Shown here: one piece after another, positions 22,110 through 33,758 of the stretch
Position numbering within the stretch: the first letter of the stretch is position 1
Layout: the number at the start of each line of letters is the position of its first letter
Assembly: GCF_030733745.1 (NCBI RefSeq)
Contig: NZ_JASHIK010000024.1
Coordinates: 1-64,000, forward strand
Origin: Stappia sp. MMSF_3263
Lineage (GTDB): Bacteria > Pseudomonadota > Alphaproteobacteria > Rhizobiales > Stappiaceae
Reading direction: 5' to 3'
DNA: 64,000 nucleotides
Program-made: the position numbers and the translations under genes
Notes under the pieces: model-generated
Seen by the model: only the letters and a program-made list of their open reading frames with translations
The model's database searches: none
What the model was told of the DNA's origin: nothing

Positions 22110-23333
22110 ATGACGAACGAGACGACCGTCGACCCGGGCGCGGGCACGAGCGAGCCGCTTTCCGCGCCGGCCAACGAGGCCGACACCCCGTCCAGCAAGG
22201 TCGAGCGGTTCGGTGGCGACAAGGCCCTGCAGCTCGATTGCGGCACCCTGCTCGATCCCTGGCAGATCGCTTACGAGACCTATGGCACGCTCAATGCCGA
22301 GCGCAGCAACGCGGTGCTTGTGTGCCACGCCCTGACCGGCGACCAGTATGTCGCCTCCCCCAATCCGCTGACAGGCAAGCCCGGTTGGTGGTCGATGCTG
22401 GTCGGCCCCGGCCGGCCGGTCGATACGGATCGCTATTTCGTCATCTGCGCCAATGTGCTCGGCGGCTGTCTCGGCACCACCGGGCCGGCCTCGACCAATC
22501 CGCAGACCGGCCGCCGATGGGGCCTCGACCTGCCGCTGGTCACCATCCGCGACATGGTCCGCGCCCAGGCGGTGCTGCTCGACCATCTCGGCATCGAGAC
22601 GCTGTTCGCCGTCGTCGGCGGCTCGATGGGCGGCATGCAGGTGCTGCAATGGGCGGTGAGCTATCCCGAGCGGGTGTTCTCGGCCCTGCCGATTGCCGCC
22701 GCCGCGCGCCATTCCTCGCAGAACATCGCCTTCCACGAGGTCGGGCGCCAGGCGGTGATGGCCGATCCGAACTGGTGCGGCGGGCGCTATTTCGAGCGCG
22801 GCGTGCGCCCCTCCAAGGGGCTCGCGGTGGCACGCATGGCCGCCCATATCACCTATCTGTCGGACCCGGCGCTGCACCGCAAGTTCGGTCGCAACCTGCA
22901 GGACCGCGATGCCATCACCTTCGGCTTCGACGCGGACTTCCAGATCGAGAGCTATCTGCGCCATCAGGGCATGACCTTCGTCGACCGCTTCGATCCCAAC
23001 TCCTATCTCTATGTCACCCGGGCTATGGACTACTTCGACCTCGGCGCCGACTATGGCGGATCGCTCGCCCGGGCCTTCCTGCATTCGCCGACCCGGTTCT
23101 GCGTGATGTCCTTCACCTCCGACTGGCTGTTCCCCACGGCCGAGAGCAAGGCGGTGGTGCGCGCGCTGAACGCGGCCGCCGCCAACGTCTCCTTCGTCGA
23201 GGTGGAGAGCGACCGGGGCCATGACGCCTTCCTGCTCGACGAGCCGGAAATGTTCCGCACCGTGACCGGCTTCCTGACCGGCGCGGCGCATGCGCGCGGC
23301 ATCGCCCCGCCGCCGGCGGGAGGCCTCGCATGA
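22110..23333 (+). CDS. metX: Homoserine O-acyltransferase
   Basis: A 407-residue alpha/beta-hydrolase-fold enzyme that acylates homoserine for methionine synthesis (acetyl by family default). The nucleophile is Ser172 in [15 protein letters not shown], and the C-terminal catalytic histidine is in [11 protein letters not shown]. The first ~35 residues are a low-complexity tail before the conserved [15 protein letters not shown] 22110 follows an AGGAGGAAA ribosome site; an upstream TTG extension looks non-coding. ATGA overlap with metW is the usual alphaproteobacterial pair. I found no SAM-II riboswitch core upstream. Confidence 0.95.
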
Positions 23334-23959
23334 ACCTGCAACCTGCTCCCTCGGGAACCGTGCGCGGCGATCACCGCCTCGTCGCCGATCTCGTCACGCC
23401 CCGCGCCCGCGTCCTCGACATCGGCTGCGGCGACGGCGAACTGCTGGACCTTCTGGTGCGCGAGAAGCAGGTGGACGGGCGCGGCATCGAACTGTCGCAG
23501 GCCGGCGTCAACGCCTGCGTCGCAAGGGGCCTGTCCGTGGTCCAGGGCGATGCCGACCGCGATCTGTCCGACTATCCGGACGATGCCTTCGATTTCGTCA
23601 TTCTCAGCCAGACGCTGCAGGCAACCTATGCCCCGCGCCAGGTCTTGCAGGAGCTGCTGCGCATCGGCTCCAACGTGATCGTCTCGTTCCCGAATTTCGG
23701 CTTCTGGCGCAACCGCTTGCAGCTCATGTTCAAGGGCAGCATGCCGGTCACGGACTACCTGCCCTACTCATGGTACGACACGCCGAACATCCATTTCTGC
23801 ACGATCCGCGACTTCGTCTCGATGTGCGACGAGGTCGATGCCCGCATGGTCCGCTCGATGGCGCTGAACGCGCGCGGCGAGCCGGTCGGCTTCACCGCGC
23901 CGTGGTGGGTGTGGAACCTGATCGGCGAACAGGCGCTGTTCCTGCTGAAACGCTCCTGA
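23330..23959 (+). CDS. metW: Methionine biosynthesis protein MetW
   Basis: A 209-residue SAM-methyltransferase-fold protein with motif [16 protein letters not shown]. MetW partners MetX and is needed for full homoserine acylation in several proteobacteria; no methylation activity is established. It begins inside the metX stop (ATGA) and ends 11 bases from the convergent methyltransferase gene. Confidence 0.95.
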
Positions 23960-24948: not shown

Positions 24949-25434
24949 TCAAGGGTCGGGAGCGGCATGCTCGATCAAGAGCGTCAGCGCCCGTTTCAGC
25001 ACCTCGGCCTCGCCCGGACCGATCGCCTCCAGCAACCGCGCCTGATGCCGCTCGGCGGCGGCGATCAGCCCGTCCACCTCCGCCTCCCCCGTTTCCGTCA
25101 GCCGCACCCAGACCCGGCGGCGGTCGTCGCCATCGGTCTGGCGCGACAGCAATCCCCGGATGACCAGCTTGTCGACCATCTTGGAGATCGCCGGCTGGTT
25201 GGCAAGGCAGCTCCTGGCCAGGTCGCCGACCGTCAGCCCGGCCGTCCCCTTCAGCGAGGCGAGGATGCGCCACACCGTGACGGGAACGCCCCGGGCGCGG
25301 ACCTCCTCGTGGAACTCGGCGCTGGCAACGCTCGAGGCCCGGGCCAGCAGGTAGAGCAAATAGGTGTCGACGAACCGCGTCTCGCCCGCAGCGCCCGCAT
25401 CCACAGGCGCCCCCTGTCCCGGCGCCCCGCTCAT
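24949..25434 (-). CDS. MarR-family regulator, probably of the NicX-like island
   Basis: A 161-residue winged-helix regulator. The DNA-binding part is about 60-125 (GDLARSCLANQPAISKMVDKL, then RQTDGDDRRRVWVRLT). Its start overlaps the stop of the flavin reductase gene (ATGA), and both face away from the NicX-like operon. In Pseudomonas putida, nicotinate genes are controlled by the MarR-type NicR, so a similar role is likely here but not shown. Confidence 0.88.
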   Translation of the reverse strand: MSGAPGQGAPVDAGAAGETRFVDTYLLYLLARASSVASAEFHEEVRARGVPVTVWRILASLKGTAGLTVGDLARSCLANQPAISKMVDKLVIRGLLSRQTDGDDRRRVWVRLTETGEAEVDGLIAAAERHQARLLEAIGPGEAEVLKRALTLLIEHAAPDP

Positions 25435-25922
25435 CGCGGCACGGGCAGGTAGTCCGGCGTCGCGTAGCGGCCGGAATGATAGATCAGCGGTTCCTTGTCG
25501 GAATGGTCGAAGGCCTCGACCCGGCCCAGGAAGACCAGATGGTCGCCCCCTTCCATCCTCGTGTCGTTCATGCATTCGAAGACGGCGGTGACGCCATCGA
25601 GAACCGGCACCCCGCACCGGCCGGCCCGCCAGGAAACGCCGGCGAAGCGGTCGGCGACGGGCCGGGCGAAGCGATCGGACAGCGCCTGCTGGTCGGAGGC
25701 CAGGATGTTGACCGCATAATGCCGGGCCGCCTCGAACACCGGCCGGTTCTGCGAGCGCAGCGAAAGGCTCCACAACACCATCGGCGGATCGAGCGAGACC
25801 GAATTGAAGGAATTGGCGGTGAGCCCGACCGGACGTCCCGCCGCGTCCAGCGTCGTGACGATGGTGACGCCGGTGACGAAACGCCCCAGCGCGTTCCTGA
25901 AGCTGCGGTGATCGCTCATCAT
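25431..25922 (-). CDS. Flavin reductase (FMN-binding split-barrel)
   Basis: A 163-residue flavin:NAD(P)H oxidoreductase of the type that feeds reduced flavin to two-component monooxygenases. The FMN-binding segment GLTANSFNSVSLDPPMVLW is clear at about 31-49, and the C-terminal part has GRVEAFDHSDKEPLIYHSG. Tandem ATGs at 25922 and 25919 follow GAGGA. It is coupled to the MarR gene. Its monooxygenase partner is not obvious; the acyl-CoA-dehydrogenase-like protein across the promoter is a candidate. Confidence 0.92.
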   Translation of the reverse strand: MMSDHRSFRNALGRFVTGVTIVTTLDAAGRPVGLTANSFNSVSLDPPMVLWSLSLRSQNRPVFEAARHYAVNILASDQQALSDRFARPVADRFAGVSWRAGRCGVPVLDGVTAVFECMNDTRMEGGDHLVFLGRVEAFDHSDKEPLIYHSGRYATPDYLPVPR

Positions 25923-25974
25923 GGCTCGTCCTCGCGTTAGGGCTCCGGCCGGATGCCGGCAATCAAGTTCATGC

Positions 25975-26009
25975 CTAAAAATATTCCTTTTCATATAATA
26001 ACGAAATTG
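25975..26009. promoter_or_regulatory. AT-rich divergent promoter region of the catabolic island
   Basis: In an otherwise GC-rich sequence, this 35-base stretch (TAAAAATATTCC...CATATAATAACG) lies between the flavin reductase and NicX-like genes. It offers -10-like hexamers on both strands (TATAAT at 25996, TATTAT on the minus strand). It is the likely promoter and MarR target. Confidence 0.5.
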
Positions 26010-26068
26010 CTACGCTCCTCCAAGTTCTTTTCGCTTGCTGCGAAAAACCGGCTTCGGGCGCAACATTC

Positions 26069-26117
26069 GCCTGCCGGGCGCGATCCGGCAGGCAACAGGA
26101 CGGACCCGGAAGGGTCC
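26069..26117 (+). promoter_or_regulatory. Two hairpins in the leader of the NicX-like operon
   Basis: A perfect 9-bp stem GCCTGCCGG/CCGGCAGGC (26069-26077, 26085-26093) is followed by GGACCC-GGAA-GGGTCC (26102-26117), ending 29 bases before the first start codon. They could tune translation or mRNA stability. Confidence 0.4.
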
Positions 26118-26145
26118 AGGCCGACACGGGATCAGGAGGGATCGC

Positions 26146-27192
26146 ATGCTCGCCGACAGGATCGAGGGAAAATGGATCGACGCCTTCGCGGAGGTCTTTT
26201 CCATGTGCAAGGTGACGCCGGGCGAAACCGTCGCGATCCTCTCCGAAACCCAGTCCCGTCCGCTCAATGTCCATATCGCCGAGCTCGCCCTGCTGCGCCT
26301 TGGCGCCAGGGCATTCCACGTGGTGGTGCCGACGCCCCGCCAGGACGCGCCGGTGCCGGTGCGCTCCACCGGGGCCAGTGCCGCGCTGACCGGCCAGGAC
26401 GCGGCGATCGCGGCGCTGGCCGCCAGCGGCCTGGTTGTCGACCTGACGGTTGAAGGCCTGCTGCACGCCCCCGAGCTGCCGCGCGTCATCGGCAATGGCG
26501 CGCGCGTGCTGATGATTTCCAACGAGCACCCGGATGCGCTCGAACGGCTGCTGCCGGTCGAGCGCGACAAGACCCGGGTGCGGGACGCGGTCGCACGGAT
26601 CCGCGCCGCCAGTGAGATGACGGTGACTTCCGCCGCCGGCACCGACCTGACGGTCGCGATGGCCGGCGCCTCCACCGTCGGCGTCTGGGGCTGGTGCGAC
26701 CGGCCCGGCTCGGTCGCCCACTGGCCCGCCGGTCTCGTCGTCTCCTTCCCCGCCGCCCACAGCGTAAACGGCACGCTCGTGCTCGATGCCGGCGACATCA
26801 ACCTGACCTTCAAGCGCTATCTCGAGCGCCCGGTGCGCCTGACCATCGTCGACGACTACGTGACGGAGATCGGGGGCGAGGGAACCGACGCCGAACTGAC
26901 CCGGCGCTACCTTGCCGCCTGGGGCGAGCGCGAGGCCTATGCGGTCGCCCATGTCGGCTTCGGCATGAACCAGGCCGCGCGCTACGAGGCACTGGCCATG
27001 TATGACCAGCGCGAGACCAACGGCACGGAAGTAAGGGCCTATTCCGGCAATTTCCTCTTCTCCACCGGCGCCAACGAATTCGCCGGCCGCTTCACCAAGG
27101 GCCATTTCGACATACCCGTACGCGGCTGTACCATCGCGCTCGACGGCGAGCCCGTGGTGGTCGACGGCGAACTGATCGAGGCGCTGCGATGA
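26146..27192 (+). CDS. 2,5-dihydroxypyridine 5,6-dioxygenase-like protein (NicX family)
   Basis: A 348-residue protein of the M29-like fold to which NicX belongs; NicX is about 350 residues and opens the ring of 2,5-dihydroxypyridine to N-formylmaleamate using Fe(II). The NicX metal site (as I recall, His265, His318, Asp320) has an equivalent: His269 in VAHVGFGMN, then His320 and Asp322 in KGHFDIPV. ATG 26146 follows AGGAGGG. It is the first gene of a coupled operon and overlaps the hydrolase by 4 bases. The true substrate may be another N-heterocycle; an M29 peptidase is the less likely alternative. Confidence 0.78.
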   Translation: MLADRIEGKWIDAFAEVFSMCKVTPGETVAILSETQSRPLNVHIAELALLRLGARAFHVVVPTPRQDAPVPVRSTGASAALTGQDAAIAALAASGLVVDLTVEGLLHAPELPRVIGNGARVLMISNEHPDALERLLPVERDKTRVRDAVARIRAASEMTVTSAAGTDLTVAMAGASTVGVWGWCDRPGSVAHWPAGLVVSFPAAHSVNGTLVLDAGDINLTFKRYLERPVRLTIVDDYVTEIGGEGTDAELTRRYLAAWGEREAYAVAHVGFGMNQAARYEALAMYDQRETNGTEVRAYSGNFLFSTGANEFAGRFTKGHFDIPVRGCTIALDGEPVVVDGELIEALR

Positions 27193-27995
27193 GCCGGCCC
27201 GGGCACATCCGCAAGACCGGCGGTCCTCGCGCGCTTCTCCTGCTGCACGGCATCGGCGCCGGCGCGGAAATGTTCGCTCCCTTGATCGACGCGCTCGGCC
27301 GCGACCATGACGTCATCGGCTGGAACCTGCCCGGCTATGGCGGAACGGAACTTCTCGCGCCGATGACCTTCCCCGGTCTTTCGGCGGCGCTCCTTGCCTT
27401 TCTCGACGGACTCGGGCTGGAAAAGGTCGACCTGCTCGGCCATTCCATCGGCGGCATGCTGGCGCAGGACTTCATCGCCCGCCATCCGGAGCGCGTGCGC
27501 ACCCTGGTGCTGTCCGCCACAACCGCCGCCTTCGGCAGCCGCGACGGCGAATTCCAGAAGCGCTTCGTCGCCGAGCGACTGGCCCCGCTCGATGCCGGGC
27601 GCACCGTGCCCGAGCTTGCCCGCGAATTCGTCCCCGACCTGGTCGGCTCGGCCACCGCCCCGAATGCCGTTCCCGCCGCCATCGCCGCGATGAGCGAGGT
27701 GCCCGAGGCAACCTATCGCGAGGCGATCCGCTGCCTGGCCACGTTCGACGCCCGCGAGACGCTTGGCCAGATCGCCGTGCCGACATTGCTGGTCGCCGGC
27801 GAGGAGGACCGCAACGCGCCCGCCCCCACCATGCGCCGGATGGCGGAAAAGATCGCCGGGGCGCGCCTCGTCGAGCTGGCCGGCATCGGCCATCTGGCGC
27901 CGCTCGAATGCGCCGACGCCTACACGGCCGAGATCAGGGCCTTTCTTCAGGAAACCGGAGACGCGAACGCGTCCGAAAGGGGAGCCGACCGATGA
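27189..27995 (+). CDS. Alpha/beta hydrolase, NicD-like by position
   Basis: A 268-residue alpha/beta-fold hydrolase. The catalytic triad is Ser86 in the elbow GHSIGG, Asp207 in GEEDRNAP and His235 in IGHLAPLE, with the oxyanion region LLHGIGAGAEM. Directly after a NicX-like dioxygenase, the obvious analogue is NicD, which deformylates N-formylmaleamate to maleamate and formate. That assignment rests on context; meta-cleavage or ester hydrolases share the fold. It overlaps both neighbours by 4 bases. Confidence 0.82.
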   Translation: MSRPGHIRKTGGPRALLLLHGIGAGAEMFAPLIDALGRDHDVIGWNLPGYGGTELLAPMTFPGLSAALLAFLDGLGLEKVDLLGHSIGGMLAQDFIARHPERVRTLVLSATTAAFGSRDGEFQKRFVAERLAPLDAGRTVPELAREFVPDLVGSATAPNAVPAAIAAMSEVPEATYREAIRCLATFDARETLGQIAVPTLLVAGEEDRNAPAPTMRRMAEKIAGARLVELAGIGHLAPLECADAYTAEIRAFLQETGDANASERGADR

Positions 27996-29278
27996 CCATC
28001 GCCGCACTGGACAAGCCCGACCCCGACGGGCTCGATGCCGACCGCCCGATCTTCGATCCGGCCGCATTTCGCCTGACCGATCAGGAAGCGGAGCTGACCG
28101 CGCTGGCCCGCCAGGTGGCGAAGTCGCGCTTCGCGCCCCGCGCCGAGGCGATCGACCGCGACGCGGTGTTCCCCACGCAGAACTACCGCGACATGCACGA
28201 GGCCGGCCTGCTCGGCATCTGCGTGCCCAGGGAAGATGGCGGCCACGGCGCGTCGTTCCGCGCCTACATGATGACGGCGGCCGAGATCGGCCGCTATTGC
28301 GGCGCCACCGCCCTGACCTGGAACATGCATGTGTGTTCCTGCCTGTGGACCGGCGCGCTGACCGACGACCTGGACATGAGCGGGGACGACCGGAAAATTC
28401 ATCTGGAGCGCCGCTCGAAGCACTATCAGCGCATCCTCAAGGACGGCGCGATCTACTCGCAGCCCTTCTCCGAAGGCGGCGCGGCGGCGGCCGGCGCGGC
28501 GCCGTTCTCGACCGCGGCGCGCAAGGTCGACGGCGGCTGGCTGATCAACGGCAAGAAGATCTTCGCCTCGCTCTCCGGCCATGCCGACTATTACGGCATC
28601 CTGTGCGGCGAGATGAAAGAGGGGGAGCGGCCCTCGCGCCGGGACACGATGTATATCGCCGTGCCGGCAACGGCCGAGGGCGTCGAGGTCGTCGGCCCCT
28701 GGGACCCGCTCGGCATGCGCGGCACGGTCTCGCGCACGCTGCTGTTCAAGGATGTCTTCGTTCCCGACGACGAGGAACTGATGCCGCGCGGCGTCTACTA
28801 CCAGGCCGCCAGCCGCTGGCCGCACATGTTCATGACCCTGTCGCCGACCTATATGGGCATCGCCCAGGCCGCCTTCGACTTCACGGTGAAATACCTGCGC
28901 GGCGAATGGCCCGGCCTGCCGCCGGTCAAGCGCCGCATGTTCCCGACCAAGCAGATGGGCGTTGCCCAGATGCACCTGATGCTGGAACAGACAAAGGCGC
29001 TGTGGTTCCAGGCGATCACCGAGGCCGGCCCCGACCCCACGCGCGAGCAGATGCTGCGTGCCTGGGCGGCGCACTACACGGTGATGGAAAACGCCAACGA
29101 GATCTGCCAGCTTGCCATCCGCACCTGCGGCGGCCAGTCGATGCTGAAATCGCTGCCGCTGGAGCGACTGTTCCGCGACAGCCGTTGCGGCGCGCTGATG
29201 TTGCCCTGGACAGCCGAGATCTGTCTCGACAGGATCGGCCGGGAGAGCCTCTACCTGCCCGGAGAGACGGACGAGTGA
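27992..29278 (+). CDS. Acyl-CoA-dehydrogenase-like flavoprotein with an altered active site
   Basis: A 428-residue protein with the acyl-CoA dehydrogenase layout: a helical N-domain, a beta-domain flavin stretch (SQPFSEGGAA...WLINGKKIFASLSGHADYY) and a C-terminal domain ending in CGGQSMLKSLPLERLFRDSR. Where typical family members have the catalytic Glu in YEGT, this protein reads LPWT with Pro405. It may therefore use a base elsewhere, as isovaleryl-CoA dehydrogenase does, or be a group D flavin monooxygenase fed by the nearby flavin reductase. It overlaps the hydrolase (ATGA) and the ligase (GTGA). Confidence 0.85.
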   Translation: MTIAALDKPDPDGLDADRPIFDPAAFRLTDQEAELTALARQVAKSRFAPRAEAIDRDAVFPTQNYRDMHEAGLLGICVPREDGGHGASFRAYMMTAAEIGRYCGATALTWNMHVCSCLWTGALTDDLDMSGDDRKIHLERRSKHYQRILKDGAIYSQPFSEGGAAAAGAAPFSTAARKVDGGWLINGKKIFASLSGHADYYGILCGEMKEGERPSRRDTMYIAVPATAEGVEVVGPWDPLGMRGTVSRTLLFKDVFVPDDEELMPRGVYYQAASRWPHMFMTLSPTYMGIAQAAFDFTVKYLRGEWPGLPPVKRRMFPTKQMGVAQMHLMLEQTKALWFQAITEAGPDPTREQMLRAWAAHYTVMENANEICQLAIRTCGGQSMLKSLPLERLFRDSRCGALMLPWTAEICLDRIGRESLYLPGETDE

Positions 29279-30816
29279 CGTCGATCGACCATTGGATCGA
29301 GGCGCATGCGCGCTTCACGCCGAACAGGCCGGCGCTGGTCTTCGAAGGCGCGACACTGACCTATGGCGACATGGCCGGCGCGATCGGCCGGGTCGCCGCA
29401 TGGCTGAGGCACACGCGCGGCATCGGCCATGGCGAGCGGATCGCGTATCTGGGCCTGAATGCGCCGGACCAGCTGCTGCTGCTCTTCGCCGCCGCCCGGA
29501 TCGGCGCGGTTCTGGTGCCGCTCAACTGGCGCCTTGCCCCGCCGGAACTCGCCCATGCGGTCACCGACAGCGGCGCGTCGCTGATCGTCCACCAGCCGGC
29601 CTTCGCCGCCACGTTGTCGGCAATGGGCGCAATCGAAGCGATGCCGCCGGCCCATCTCGCCGACCCCGCGACCGGCGGGCTCGCCGCAAGCACCGCCGAC
29701 AGGCTCCCGGTCGCTGCCGGGGCCGCCGGCGGCGGCTGCGCGAGCGATCCGCTGCTGATCGTCTACACCTCCGGCACGACGGGCCTGCCGAAAGGCGCGG
29801 TGCTGACGCAAAAGGCGCTCGAGACCAATGCGCTCAACGCGGTGCACATGCAGGAGATCGCCGCCACCGACACGATCCTGACGGTGCTGCCGATGTTCCA
29901 TGTCGGCGGGCTCAACATCCAGACGACGCCTGCGCTCTATACCGGAGCCCGCGTCATCCTGCATGACCGCTTCACGCCCGCGGCAACGCTGGCCGCGATC
30001 CGCGACGAACGACCCGACCTCACCGTGCTGGTGCCCGCCACCCTGTCGGCGATGATCGCCCACCCCGACTGGGAGAGGACCGACCTGTCGTCCCTGCGCG
30101 CCGTGGCGACCGGCTCCTCCGACGTGCCGCACATGCTGATGCGCGCCTTCATCCGCCGCGGCGTGCCGGTCCTCCAGATCTATGGCGCGACCGAGACAGG
30201 CCCCGTCGCCATCTACCAGCGGCGCGGCGACAGCGAGGAGGAGTTCGGCGCGATCGGCCGTGCCGGCCTGCACACGCGCGCCCGCATCATGGTCGGCGAC
30301 CGCCGGGCGGAGCCGGGAGAGATCGGCGAGATCGAGCTCAGGGGCGGCAACATCACGACAGGCTACTGGAACAGGCCCGAGGCCGATGCCGGCACCTTCC
30401 AGGACGGCTGGTTCCGCACCGGCGACCTGGCGCTGGCCGACGAGGCCGGCGTCTTCTGGTTCAAGGACCGGCTGAAGAACGTCATCATTTCCGGCGGCGA
30501 GAACATCTATCCGGCCGAGCTGGAGCGGGTGCTGGGCGAGATCTCGGGCCTGAAGGAGGCCGCCGTCGTCGGCGTCGCCGACCTGCGCTGGGGCGAGAGC
30601 CCGGTCGCGGTGGTGGTGCCGCAGGAACAGGGGAAAATCAGCGCGGAAACGGTGCTGAAAGGCTTCGACGGACATCTGGCGCGCTACAAGCACCCGAAAT
30701 CCGTCGTATTCGTGGAGGCCTTGCCGCGCAACGCGCTCGGCAAGATCCAACTGGATAAGGTCAGGAAAATGGCTGAGGATGCCCTCGGCAAGGATAGTAA
30801 AAAACAACGAGCCTGA
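29275..30816 (+). CDS. AMP-dependent acyl-CoA synthetase/ligase
   Basis: A 513-residue ANL-superfamily enzyme that activates a carboxylic acid to its CoA thioester through an acyl-adenylate. The P-loop VYTSGTTGLPKG is near residues 162-173, followed by YGATETGP, the hinge TGDLALADEAGVFWFKDRLK, and the C-terminal lysine in PRNALGKIQLDK near 492. Start is GTG 29275, overlapping the preceding stop after GGAGAG. The substrate is likely an intermediate of the same pathway or the imported acid. Confidence 0.92.
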   Translation: MTSIDHWIEAHARFTPNRPALVFEGATLTYGDMAGAIGRVAAWLRHTRGIGHGERIAYLGLNAPDQLLLLFAAARIGAVLVPLNWRLAPPELAHAVTDSGASLIVHQPAFAATLSAMGAIEAMPPAHLADPATGGLAASTADRLPVAAGAAGGGCASDPLLIVYTSGTTGLPKGAVLTQKALETNALNAVHMQEIAATDTILTVLPMFHVGGLNIQTTPALYTGARVILHDRFTPAATLAAIRDERPDLTVLVPATLSAMIAHPDWERTDLSSLRAVATGSSDVPHMLMRAFIRRGVPVLQIYGATETGPVAIYQRRGDSEEEFGAIGRAGLHTRARIMVGDRRAEPGEIGEIELRGGNITTGYWNRPEADAGTFQDGWFRTGDLALADEAGVFWFKDRLKNVIISGGENIYPAELERVLGEISGLKEAAVVGVADLRWGESPVAVVVPQEQGKISAETVLKGFDGHLARYKHPKSVVFVEALPRNALGKIQLDKVRKMAEDALGKDSKKQRA

Positions 30817-30848
30817 CCGAACCGAACCAGAAGACAGAGGGGACTAGC

Positions 30849-31862
30849 ATGCGCAAATTCATCGGGATGCTGACCGCCGTCGCGGCGCTGGGACTTGCCG
30901 GCGCCGCATCCGCAGAGACCACGCTTCGGGTCTCCAACTGGCTGCCGCCCTCCCATCCGATCGTCAAGGACATCCTCGTGCCCTGGGGCGAACAGGTGGC
31001 CACGGCAACCGACGGCCGTGTCAAGGTCGAGATCATGGCCTCGCCGATCGGCAAGCCGCCGGCGCAGTTCGACCTCGTCCGCTCCGGCGCGGCCGATGTC
31101 GGCTATGGCGTGCATGGCTACACCCCCGGCCGCTTCAAGCTGACGCCGCTGGTCGAGGGGCCGTTCCTGTCCGACAGCGCAGAAGCCTTGTCCGTCGCCT
31201 ACTGGAAGGTACAGGACGCGATGCTCGGCAAGGCCAACGAGCATGACGGCGTCAAGCTCCTGACCGTCTTCACCCACGGCCCCGGCATGATCTACACGAC
31301 GGACAAGAAGGTCGCGACGGTTGACGACCTTTCGGGTCTGAAGATGCGCATCGGCGGCGGCATCGTCGCCGAGATCGCCTCGCGCCTCGGCATGGTCGGC
31401 GTCCAGGCGCCCTCGCCGCAGGTCTACGAGATCCTCTCCAACGGGGTTGCCGACGGCATCCTGTTCCCGGCGGAATCCGTGCCCTTCTTCCGCATCGACG
31501 AGGTCATCCGCAACGGCGTCTCCGTGCCCGGCGGGCTCTACAACACCTCCTTCTTCGTCGTCATGAACCAGGCCAGCTGGGACAAGCTTTCCGACGCCGA
31601 CAAGGCGGCGATCGACGGGGTCTCCGGCGAGGCGATGGCCCGCATGGCCGGCAAGGCATGGGACGCGGCGGACGCGGCCGGCACCAAGGTGATGACCGAC
31701 AAGGGCGTCGCCCTCACGCAGGCCGACGCGGCGATGACCGCGGCGATCACCGAGAAGCTCGCCGGCGTCGAGAACGGCTTCCTCGAGGCTGCCACGGCCG
31801 GCGGCATCGACGGCAAGGCCGCGATGGACATGCTCAAGGCCGAGATCGCCGCGGCGAAATGA
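30849..31862 (+). CDS. TRAP transporter substrate-binding protein (DctP family)
   Basis: A 337-residue periplasmic receptor with a signal peptide (MRKFIGMLTAVAALGLAGAASAE, cut after ASA). The mature DctP fold contains GGGIVAEIASRLGMV and the NGVADGILFPAESVPFF region. Binding proteins of this type usually capture carboxylates, which would suit an aromatic or heterocyclic acid. It is 32 bases after the ligase and overlaps the small permease by 4 bases. Confidence 0.93.
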   Translation: MRKFIGMLTAVAALGLAGAASAETTLRVSNWLPPSHPIVKDILVPWGEQVATATDGRVKVEIMASPIGKPPAQFDLVRSGAADVGYGVHGYTPGRFKLTPLVEGPFLSDSAEALSVAYWKVQDAMLGKANEHDGVKLLTVFTHGPGMIYTTDKKVATVDDLSGLKMRIGGGIVAEIASRLGMVGVQAPSPQVYEILSNGVADGILFPAESVPFFRIDEVIRNGVSVPGGLYNTSFFVVMNQASWDKLSDADKAAIDGVSGEAMARMAGKAWDAADAAGTKVMTDKGVALTQADAAMTAAITEKLAGVENGFLEAATAGGIDGKAAMDMLKAEIAAAK

Positions 31863-32371
31863 GCCGGGAGACCCCCGACAGCGCCACGGCCGGGCGGGAG
31901 GCCTCCCTCCCCGCCCGGCTGCTTGGTGCGGGAACGCGCGCGTTGCAACTGGTGGCAGCCGTCCTGCTGCTGGTGATGATGGCGGTGACCTTCGTCGACG
32001 TCATCGGCCGCTACCTGTTCAACGCCCCGCTCCCCGGCGCCTTCGAGCTGACCGAGGTGCTGCTGGCGCTCATCGTCTTTGTCGGCCTGCCGATCGTCAC
32101 AGCGCGGCGCGAGCACGTCACGGTCGATCTTCTGACCGGCAAGCTGCCGGACGGGGCGCGGGCGGCGCTGGCCTGGCTGGCGACGCTGGCGACCGGCGCG
32201 GTGCTGGCGCTGCTGGCCTGGCGACTGGCCTTGAGCGCCCGCGACTTCTCCGCCTATGGCGATGCCACGGTCTATCTCGGCATTCCGCTCGGGCCGGTGG
32301 CCGGCATCATGGCCGGCCTCACCGCGCTCGCGGCGCTGGCCGCCGCCATGCTTCTGGTCCGGCGACGCTAG
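31859..32371 (+). CDS. TRAP transporter small permease (DctQ)
   Basis: A 170-residue membrane protein with four helices, beginning after a polar N-terminus of about 30 residues. The DctQ pattern FVDVIGRYLFNAPLPGAFELTE is clear. It works with DctP and DctM in Na+-driven uptake. ATGA overlap with the receptor gene supports co-translation. Confidence 0.92.
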   Translation: MSRETPDSATAGREASLPARLLGAGTRALQLVAAVLLLVMMAVTFVDVIGRYLFNAPLPGAFELTEVLLALIVFVGLPIVTARREHVTVDLLTGKLPDGARAALAWLATLATGAVLALLAWRLALSARDFSAYGDATVYLGIPLGPVAGIMAGLTALAALAAAMLLVRRR

Positions 32372-32465
32372 CACCGGCCCGGACCGGCCCCGTTCAACGC
32401 ATGCGTTCCGGGGGGCGGCATCGCCCCCTTCTCCCACACCTCGCGCGACCGGAACTTGCAAGACC

Positions 32466-33758
32466 ATGGAAACCTGGCTTCCCGGCCTCGTCATACTCGT
32501 CGTCGTCATGTTCGCCGGCGTGCCGATCGCCGTCGCCATGGCCGCCGTCGGCGGTCTCGGCCTGACCATGATCCTCGGCTTCACCCCCGCCATGGCGATC
32601 GTCGGCCAGACCACGTTCGACACCGGCCTGTCCTATTCGCTCTCCGTGGTGCCGCTGTTCGTCCTGATGGGCAACCTTGTCACCCGGGCGGGCCTTTCCG
32701 ACGAGCTCTACGCCGCCTGCCATGCCTGGCTCGGCCACCGCAGGGGCGGGCTCGCCATGGCCACCGCCGTCGCCTGCGGTGGATTTTCCGCCGTTTGCGG
32801 CTCCTCGCTGGCCACCGCCGCGACGATGGGCAAGGTCGCGCTGCCGCAGATGCGCCGCTACAAGTATGACGACGGGCTGGCCAGCGGCGTCATCGCCGCC
32901 GGCGGCACGCTGGGAATTCTCATTCCGCCCTCCGTCATCCTGGTGCTCTACGGCGTCACCGCCCAGCAGGACATCGCCAGGCTGTTCATCGCCGGCATCG
33001 TGCCCGGCATTCTCGGCATTCTCGGCTACATGGCCGCCGTGCGCCTCGTATGCTGGTACCGCCCGCAGGCCGGCCCGCCGGCCGAACGCCTGCCCTATCG
33101 CGAGCGTTTCCGCGCGCTCTCCGGCGTCGCCGGCATCACCGCGCTCTTCGTCCTCGTCATCGGCGGCATCTATGCCGGCATCTTCACCGCGACGGAGGCG
33201 GCCGGCATCGGCGCCAGCGGCGCCTTCGTCATCGCCCTTTTCCGACGCAGGTTGACCTGGGCGACCCTGCTGGAGACGCTTTCCGACACGGCCGCCACGA
33301 CGACGATGATGTTCATGGTGCTGATCGGCGCGCTGATCTTCTCCAATTTCGTCAACATCGCCGGCCTGCCCGCCGCCCTGTCCGGCATGGCCAATGCCTC
33401 CGACCTGCCGGCCTGGGCCATCCTGCTCGCCGTGCTCGGCGTCTATCTCTGCCTCGGCATGGTGCTGGAAAGCCTGTCCATGGTGCTCCTCACCGTGCCG
33501 ATCTTCGCCCCGATGATGGCAGCCCTCGGCTACGACCTCGTCTGGTTCGGCATCGTCGTCGTGGTGGTGACCGAAATCAGCCTGATCACCCCGCCCGTCG
33601 GCCTCAACGTCTTCGTGCTGAAGACGGTGATGCCGGACGTTCCGCTCGGCCGGATCTTCCGCGGCATCGTGCCCTTCATCCTCGCCGACATCGTCCGCCT
33701 GGCGGTGATCGTCGCCTTCCCGGCGCTGGTCCTCGCCCTGCCGAACCTGATGCGCTGA
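32466..33758 (+). CDS. TRAP transporter large permease (DctM)
   Basis: A 430-residue inner-membrane protein with about 12 helices and DctM motifs GVPIAVAMAAVGG, SYSLSVVPLFVLMGNLV, FSAVCGSSLATAATMGKVALPQM and GTLGILIPPSV. It completes the TRAP system and is the last gene of the island. The 94-base gap to the small permease is the widest within the operon; no terminator is obvious after the stop. Confidence 0.94.
   Translation: METWLPGLVILVVVMFAGVPIAVAMAAVGGLGLTMILGFTPAMAIVGQTTFDTGLSYSLSVVPLFVLMGNLVTRAGLSDELYAACHAWLGHRRGGLAMATAVACGGFSAVCGSSLATAATMGKVALPQMRRYKYDDGLASGVIAAGGTLGILIPPSVILVLYGVTAQQDIARLFIAGIVPGILGILGYMAAVRLVCWYRPQAGPPAERLPYRERFRALSGVAGITALFVLVIGGIYAGIFTATEAAGIGASGAFVIALFRRRLTWATLLETLSDTAATTTMMFMVLIGALIFSNFVNIAGLPAALSGMANASDLPAWAILLAVLGVYLCLGMVLESLSMVLLTVPIFAPMMAALGYDLVWFGIVVVVVTEISLITPPVGLNVFVLKTVMPDVPLGRIFRGIVPFILADIVRLAVIVAFPALVLALPNLMR

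Follow-up and report, generated by a model that had tools for sequence, protein, structure and literature searches.

A conserved gene module around a NicX-type dioxygenase in Stappia sp. MMSF_3263: a candidate ring-cleavage route with a possible link to anthranilate

The window analyzed here is a stretch of 64,000 nt from Stappia sp. MMSF_3263 (assembly GCF_030733745.1, contig NZ_JASHIK010000024.1, positions 1 to 64,000). It harbors an island of nine genes. A MarR-family protein and a flavin reductase are encoded on the minus strand, and the remaining seven genes follow on the plus strand in the order NicX-like dioxygenase, alpha/beta hydrolase, acyl-CoA dehydrogenase (ACAD)-like protein, CoA ligase, and DctP, DctQ and DctM of a tripartite ATP-independent periplasmic (TRAP) transporter. 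An earlier note, made from the sequence alone, had described this gene content, order and strand distribution, and open reading frame (ORF) and profile searches bore it out. The span of 25431-33758 given there fits the rest of the island, but the MarR gene extends beyond it to 24949. The note had also counted five coding overlaps in the plus-strand row. Only four are present in that row, each of 4 bp (NicX/hydrolase, hydrolase/ACAD-like, ACAD-like/ligase and DctP/DctQ); a fifth 4-bp overlap does exist, at the flavin reductase/MarR junction on the minus strand. The junctions from the ligase to DctP and from DctQ to DctM are without overlap.

The first enzyme of the plus-strand row (26146..27192) matched no model of Pfam or NCBIfam. 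Among distinct PDB sequences up to E=1, NicX of P. putida (7cn3) was the sole match (E=4.1e-60), and the identity to NicX of the annotated nic cluster of Azospirillum was 41%. The AlphaFold2 model had a pLDDT of 92.1 and aligned to 7cn3 in Foldseek with a TM score of 0.92. NicX binds its iron by H265, S302, H318 and D320, and contacts its substrate by Leu104, His105, Glu177 and His189 (excerpts of PMC7910607). The metal triad proposed in the earlier note (His269, His320 and Asp322) was exact when the protein starts at 26146, and Ser306 corresponds to the fourth iron ligand of NicX. An M29-type aminopeptidase, which would make the cluster unrelated to ring cleavage, had been named as the competing assignment. 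Plasmid records indeed label relatives with about 51% identity as "peptidase M29", and the fold is distantly common to both groups, with TM scores of 0.55 to 0.61 between our model and M29 peptidases. The M29 model PF02073 matched neither the first protein nor anything else in the own genome; four of 14 control genomes matched. Together with the TM score of 0.92 to NicX and the conserved single-iron site, this led us to reject an M29 aminopeptidase, which we consider hardly conceivable. Judged from sequence and structural model, the first enzyme is a predicted NicX-fold Fe(II) dioxygenase and not an M29 peptidase.

For the comparison of active-site residues we aligned 84 rows, comprising the window, 80 loci chosen by their NicX relative (best 80 of 93) and three plasmid relatives. 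In NicX numbering, H265, H318 and D320 were kept in 84/84 rows and S302 in 83/84, and R293 was conserved in 84/84 rows. His105 was present in 81/81 ungapped rows, and His189 in 79 of 84 (four Asn, one gap). Glu177, which binds 2,5-dihydroxypyridine in NicX (excerpts of PMC7910607), occurred in 0/83 ungapped rows. The position was taken by Val, as in the window, in 50 rows and by Gly (11), Ile (10), Ser (6), Thr (3), Asn (2) or Ala (1) in the others. Five NicX-type rows lie outside the clade: Glu177 is kept in L104, which is a nic cluster by annotation, and in L105 and L109, which are nic-like by gene order only, and the residue is Gln in L107 and L108, which belong to a cluster of HpaB type. 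A tree was built from the loci with a length of 335 to 356 (70 of the 80) and 10 others; in it, the 75 window-type rows formed one clade with a support of 100/100, with a warning of the tool about long branches. The pocket of the clade is, as far as aligned residues tell, changed relative to that of 2,5-dihydroxypyridine dioxygenase, and its iron site is complete.

The earlier note had stated that the island does not match the nicotinate pathway, and this agrees with our data. Besides the loss of Glu177 and the separate clade, nothing in the own genome, which is 99.87% complete, matched maleamate amidase NicF at E≤1e-3 (no positive-control genome was run), and maleate isomerase NicE gave one 25% identical match at the family level only. 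Nicotinate hydroxylase NicAB is not among the nine island proteins, the rest of the genome not having been searched for it. The absence of Glu177 and of a NicF match agrees with a ring other than 2-pyridone. A NicX orthologue that acts on 2,5-dihydroxypyridine derived from another precursor would account for the 41% identity to Azospirillum NicX and for the shared fold and metal site. We nevertheless regard it as very unlikely in view of the separate 75-row clade (to which the long-branch warning applies), the lack of Glu177 in this clade when three NicX-type rows keep it, and the missing NicF match.

The ACAD-like protein (27992..29278, plus strand) has Pfam Acyl-CoA_dh domains and its best sequence matches were 5gj7 and 5z8t. 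We compared two columns which we take to be the catalytic Glu positions of ACADs. The usual position was Pro405 in 41/41 rows, and the alternative position was Met in 39, Ser in 1 and Gly in 1. For the ACADs of the own genome, 15 loci were taken and the reading frame was legible for seven; in six of these seven, Glu occupies either position, and in the seventh neither. The designation as acyl-CoA-dehydrogenase-like in the earlier note holds for the fold, but a dehydrogenase role is unlikely, with a catalytic Glu in 0/41 rows. Since both usual catalytic glutamates are gone, the protein is a probable oxygenase rather than an enzyme of beta-oxidation. Group D monooxygenases have an ACAD domain (excerpts of PMC10816480). 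The match to the oxygenase model of 4-hydroxyphenylacetate (4-HPA) hydroxylase reached only 47.3 bits at a cut-off of 650.

The putative partner, an HpaC/C1-like NAD(P)H:flavin reductase (25431..25922, minus strand; outermost possible start at 25994), matched Pfam Flavin_Reduct (E=1.2e-41), PDB 5zc2 (E=1e-42) and the 4-HPA hydroxylase reductase model NF045919 (201.6 bits, under the cut-off of 340). The MarR-family protein (24949..25434, minus strand) matched NCBIfam HpaR and other MarR models, every one below cut-off, and also weakly (24.7 bits) the C-terminal part of NF045919. In the 4-HPA reductase of Acinetobacter, a C-terminal MarR domain binds the substrate (excerpts of PMC10816480). The two parts are fused in L112, L037, L064 and L070 and are separate overlapping genes in the window, where they look like a split reductase of this hydroxylase. 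Flavin reductase, NicX and ACAD-like genes lie in one run on an Aminobacter plasmid, on an Ensifer plasmid and in Achromobacter L073. The ACAD-like protein and the flavin reductase are probably a two-component flavin monooxygenase with a predicted role as hydroxylase.

We also followed the earlier suggestion to look for the same gene order in related genomes. Neighbors were counted in the 49 of the 80 loci with at least 7 kb on either side of NicX. Within 7 kb, the ACAD-like gene was present in 43 of these loci, the ligase in 36, the hydrolase in 32, MarR in 22, DctP in 17 and the flavin reductase in 13. After removal of the Stappia group (L001 to L012), the ACAD-like gene was still found in 32/38, the ligase in 25/38 and the hydrolase in 21/38. 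The neighborhood recurs and is not due to chance. The hydrolase counts are probably low because the simple gene finder misses short genes. Conservation is looser for the ligase than for the ACAD-like gene. A search of a plasmid collection with the ACAD-like protein (E≤1e-30) gave seven records, six of which have an adjoining NicX relative by listed coordinates, with no NicX relative in the annotation of the seventh. A lone ACAD-like gene with 56% identity was seen on plasmid pDol_DET69_01 of a cyanobacterial metagenome assembly (L137:8995-10242), surrounded by transposases, toxin-antitoxin and hypothetical genes. Records with a NicX-family enzyme of this kind are alphaproteobacterial, betaproteobacterial and actinobacterial. 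By these gene neighborhoods the module is a real and widely conserved candidate variant of NicX-type ring cleavage. No description of it was present among the literature matches listed for NicX with such a gene or substrate context, in line with the earlier remark that the route is not known as described.

The hydrolase (27189..27995, plus strand) is PcaD-like (Pfam Abhydrolase_1, E=6e-27). The PcaD-type models TIGR02427 (145.9 bits, cut-off 255.85) and NF051488 (172.1 bits) both matched under cut-off, and S86, D207 and H235 were invariant across 23 aligned rows. It had been described as a hydrolase in the position of NicD. An alpha/beta hydrolase is indeed next to NicX, but it matched PcaD-type models, none of the best 25 of 36 model matches was named NicD, and identity to NicD of the Azospirillum nic cluster was only 22%. 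The acyl-CoA (AMP-forming) ligase (29275..30816, plus strand, GTG start) matched NF005307 with 418.2 bits, below the cut-off of 748, and the feruloyl-CoA synthetase 8wev in PDB with 355.6 bits. The TRAP genes comprise DctP (30849..31862; Pfam DctP, E=2.2e-33; PDB 4p56, E=1.4e-88), DctQ (31859..32371; Pfam DctQ, E=3e-25, scored on the longer ORF 31658-32371) and DctM (32466..33758; TIGR00786, 322.3 bits, above the cut-off of 268.45), all on the plus strand. We take 4p56 to be a mandelate-binding protein, and the presumed ligand class of DctP is based on such PDB entries. Upstream of the island (22110-23959), the window contains two further genes, the first for an alpha/beta hydrolase and the next for a methyltransferase of the MetW family.

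Further clusters with NicX-family genes were observed. Genome G009, apparently Stappia indica SN13-18, has a second NicX-clade cluster (L106:7979-15230) with hydrolase, YCII protein, MarR and TRAP genes; in this paralogue cluster a class A FAD ring hydroxylase replaces the ACAD-like protein. The more distant clusters L108:3479-9832 and L107:7337-14801 encode an HpaB-type hydroxylase (28% identity to HpaB of L070), a SnoaL protein, two amidases (tested in L108), a flavin reductase and the NicX relative with Gln177, and are unlike nic. The hydroxylases encoded in L106, L107 and L108 speak for the hydroxylase role predicted for the ACAD-like protein. On plasmids L101:5263-17376 and L102:9001-16729, a NicX relative, the ACAD-like protein and a hydrolase occur with a glutamine-synthetase-family gene and an APC permease, which looks like a version for aromatic amines. 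L101 additionally has a polyketide-cyclase domain on the hydrolase, a gentisate-type dioxygenase and a fumarylacetoacetate hydrolase (FAH) protein. Genes for 3-hydroxyacyl-CoA-dehydrogenase-like and octopine-dehydrogenase-like proteins recur with the module (L030:1238-3303, L112:408-2467 and L159:12889-14967). A methylmalonyl-CoA-mutase-type gene lies near the module in L021:16872-18578 and resembles the mutase known from the anaerobic degradation of indoleacetate. Other neighbors are not widely shared, such as agmatinase and aminotransferases (Acidimicrobiaceae), phosphoglycerate kinase and pyruvate kinase (L077) or cobS/gcpE (L014).

A physical link to ANTHRANILATE was observed: in four gene arrangements the module adjoins, or shares a run with, genes of the 2-aminobenzoyl-CoA pathway. 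In L160, a single plus-strand run comprises NicX, hydrolase, ACAD-like protein and ligase and, after a gap of 2 bp, a relative of 2-aminobenzoyl-CoA monooxygenase/reductase (ACMR), followed by a short-chain dehydrogenase/reductase (SDR), MarR, enoyl-CoA hydratase, an ACAD, a second ligase and RidA. L042 resembles L160 in the order of module, ACMR, SDR, MarR and hydratase, with one opposite-strand gene between. In L159, an 8.0-Mb contig, module and anthranilate cluster are at most 10 kb apart. In L039, the end of ACMR and NicX are separated by 35 bp, and in L059 enoyl-CoA hydratase, ACAD, second ligase and RidA continue into hydrolase, ACAD-like protein and ligase of the module. The own genome has the same seven-gene anthranilate set (L158), and its ACMR, like that of L042, scores above the cut-off of NF006101. 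AndAa-like ferredoxin reductases in five loci are generic and were not used as evidence. Anthranilate formed during indole and quinaldine degradation is broken down by aminobenzoyl-CoA ligase and monooxygenase/reductase (excerpts of PMC6221969 and PMC3534580). The continuation through CoA thioesters that the earlier note had inferred is likely and is supported by these linkages in several genomes.

We tentatively propose, at somewhat less than an even chance, that the island is a peripheral catabolic operon by which a benzo-fused N-heterocyclic acid is converted to anthranilate through the successive action of the hydroxylase, the ring-cleaving dioxygenase and the hydrolase. The TRAP transporter would import the aromatic acid, and flavin reductase and ACAD-like oxygenase would hydroxylate the hetero-ring. 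The NicX-clade enzyme would then insert O2 and cut the bond beside the new hydroxyl. NicX itself turns the hydroxyl-bearing carbon into a carboxylate and the carbon beside the nitrogen into an N-formyl group, its known product being N-formylmaleamate. By analogy, a hydroxylated pyrrole fused to benzene would give an N-acylanthranilate, or a 2-aminobenzoyl acid if the ring bears a 3-side chain. The hydrolase could take off the N-acyl or acyl arm and free anthranilate, or the ligase could form the CoA ester; anthranilate or a 2-aminobenzoyl compound would enter the 2-aminobenzoyl-CoA pathway, whose genes lie elsewhere in the own genome. The island ligase is not the same as the second ligase found in the anthranilate cluster. 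Since both ligases are present in L160 and L059, the island ligase probably acts on a side-chain acid or on the ring-opened acid, and not on anthranilate. The likeliest substrate class would be an indole carboxylic acid such as indole-3-acetate, followed by a quinoline acid such as kynurenate, with a carbocyclic acid as third. The link to anthranilate favors an N-heterocyclic substrate, but with Glu177 gone the ring may also be carbocyclic.

We tested whether the link to anthranilate genes holds at the level of whole genomes, using 385 genomes of the class, 27 with and 358 without a window-type NicX (at least 52% identity in 26 genomes; in G187, a partial match with 74% identity was accepted). 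ACMR was present in 19/27 genomes with and 49/358 without window-type NicX (p=4e-10). The control gentisate dioxygenase gave 20/27 versus 55/358 (p=2e-10), and the control PaaA was weaker, with 9/27 versus 39/358 (p=0.003). When the comparison was made with genomes whose NicX relatives are all weaker, ACMR was found in 19/27 versus 8/23 (p=0.02), and among 61 relatives in 20/21 with and 17/40 without window-type NicX, a comparison confounded by kinship. Co-occurrence was rejected as proof, since the gentisate dioxygenase control was equally high. With distances judged by eye from listed places, ACMR lies within 10 kb of window-type NicX in 3/19 genomes having both (G430, G147 and G421), compared to 0/20 for gentisate dioxygenase and 0/9 for PaaA. 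A rough chance estimate for three such close cases, assuming genomes of 4.7 Mb, was 8e-5. The specificity of this closeness relative to the controls is suggestive only.

Several observations weigh against the proposed formation of anthranilate. Because the gentisate control matches, the co-occurrence of ACMR reflects catabolic breadth. The difference in closeness between ACMR and the pooled controls (3/19 versus 0/29) has p=0.06, and L042, whose ACMR served as query, comes from G430, which is itself among the three close genomes. Strong matches to the anthranilate cluster near NicX were found only in L039, L042 and L059 of the 80 loci, and these three are metagenome assemblies. In the own genome, the anthranilate cluster is on contig C3 and the island on C16. 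The family NF006101, which we take to be ACMR, is labeled "bifunctional salicylyl-CoA 5-hydroxylase/oxidoreductase". A ligase was absent nearby in 9 of the 43 long-flank loci with an ACAD-like gene. In a fold search with the model of the ACAD-like protein, the closest chains mix monooxygenases and dehydrogenases, and the two are not separated. A substrate that is not a 2-pyridone would agree with the missing Glu177, but a ring nitrogen is not required.

The loss of Glu177, which contacts the pyridone, in 83/83 ungapped rows would fit a module for the degradation of a monocyclic aromatic acid that has no nitrogen in its ring, for example a hydroxyphenylacetate or hydroxybenzoate. The monooxygenase would produce a hydroquinone-type ring, the NicX-clade enzyme would open it, and the hydrolase would cut the fission product. 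The resemblance of flavin reductase and MarR to the halves of 4-HPA hydroxylase reductase, fused in the four loci named above, the closeness of DctP to the presumed mandelate-binding protein 4p56, and the absence of an amidase among the nine island proteins point in the same direction. Such a module leaves the repeated linkage to the aminobenzoyl-CoA cluster unexplained, and only 2,5-dihydroxypyridine is reported as NicX substrate (excerpts of PMC7910607); we consider it unlikely. The same linkage would be accounted for if the module acted in the lower pathway and 5-hydroxylated anthranilate or 2-aminobenzoyl-CoA, with the NicX-clade enzyme opening the para-aminophenol ring. 5-Hydroxyanthraniloyl-CoA was reported from monooxygenase/reductase under limiting NADH (excerpts of PMC3534580), and a gentisate/5-aminosalicylate-type dioxygenase and an FAH protein are encoded in the same Aminobacter run. 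However, L160 and the own-genome L158 already hold an ACMR set with its own ligase, and ACMR is present in 49/358 genomes without window-type NicX and therefore works without the module. We consider an action in the lower pathway quite unlikely.

If a benzo-fused N-heterocyclic acid is indeed the substrate, the NicX family would have a member whose substrate is not 2,5-dihydroxypyridine, and anthranilate as product would imply a new funnel from N-heterocycles, possibly including auxin, a plant hormone, into central metabolism. The clade allows a direct test of how the NicX fold changes its substrate, and its relatives on plasmids are labeled "peptidase M29" although the clade belongs to a recurring, predicted ring-cleavage module of marine and soil bacteria. 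More specifically, it might represent a third aerobic bacterial route for indole acids beside iac and iad, with group D hydroxylation followed by serine-coordinated NicX-type Fe(II) cleavage of the pyrrole to anthranilate, although we regard this as doubtful.

The module shares features with several known systems. It resembles NicX/Hpo and the nic cluster in the fold, the four iron ligands, His105, mostly His189, and the neighboring alpha/beta hydrolase. It differs by the separate clade without Glu177, by a predicted ACAD-type hydroxylase as neighbor in place of the FAD monooxygenase, and by having a CoA ligase and TRAP genes and no NicE/NicF neighbors. While a NicX-type Fe(II) enzyme would open the ring here, the 2,4-dioxygenase of the quinaldine route is cofactor-independent. 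The same is true for the oxygenase IifA of the indole route (excerpts of PMC6221969). The iad pathway ends in anthranilate and iaa in 2-aminobenzoyl-CoA, and a NicX-type enzyme is not named for iac, iad or iaa in the excerpts of PMC11630574 and PMC9613470. The ring-hydroxylating dioxygenase IadDE of iad has no counterpart among the nine island proteins, the genome not having been searched for it. MarR regulators occur in iac and iad (same excerpts), and a MarR-family gene is also present in the island. With the group D 4-HPA hydroxylase of Acinetobacter the island shares an ACAD-fold protein, here a probable oxygenase, a flavin reductase and a MarR-like part (excerpts of PMC10816480), although in the island two overlapping genes encode reductase and MarR, and the putative oxygenase scored far below the cut-off of the hydroxylase model. 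The upper pathways of quinaldine and indole (iif/ind) would be similar in their overall logic, with hydroxylation of the hetero-ring, opening by O2, and delivery of anthranilate to a CoA pathway (excerpts of PMC3534580 and PMC6221969).

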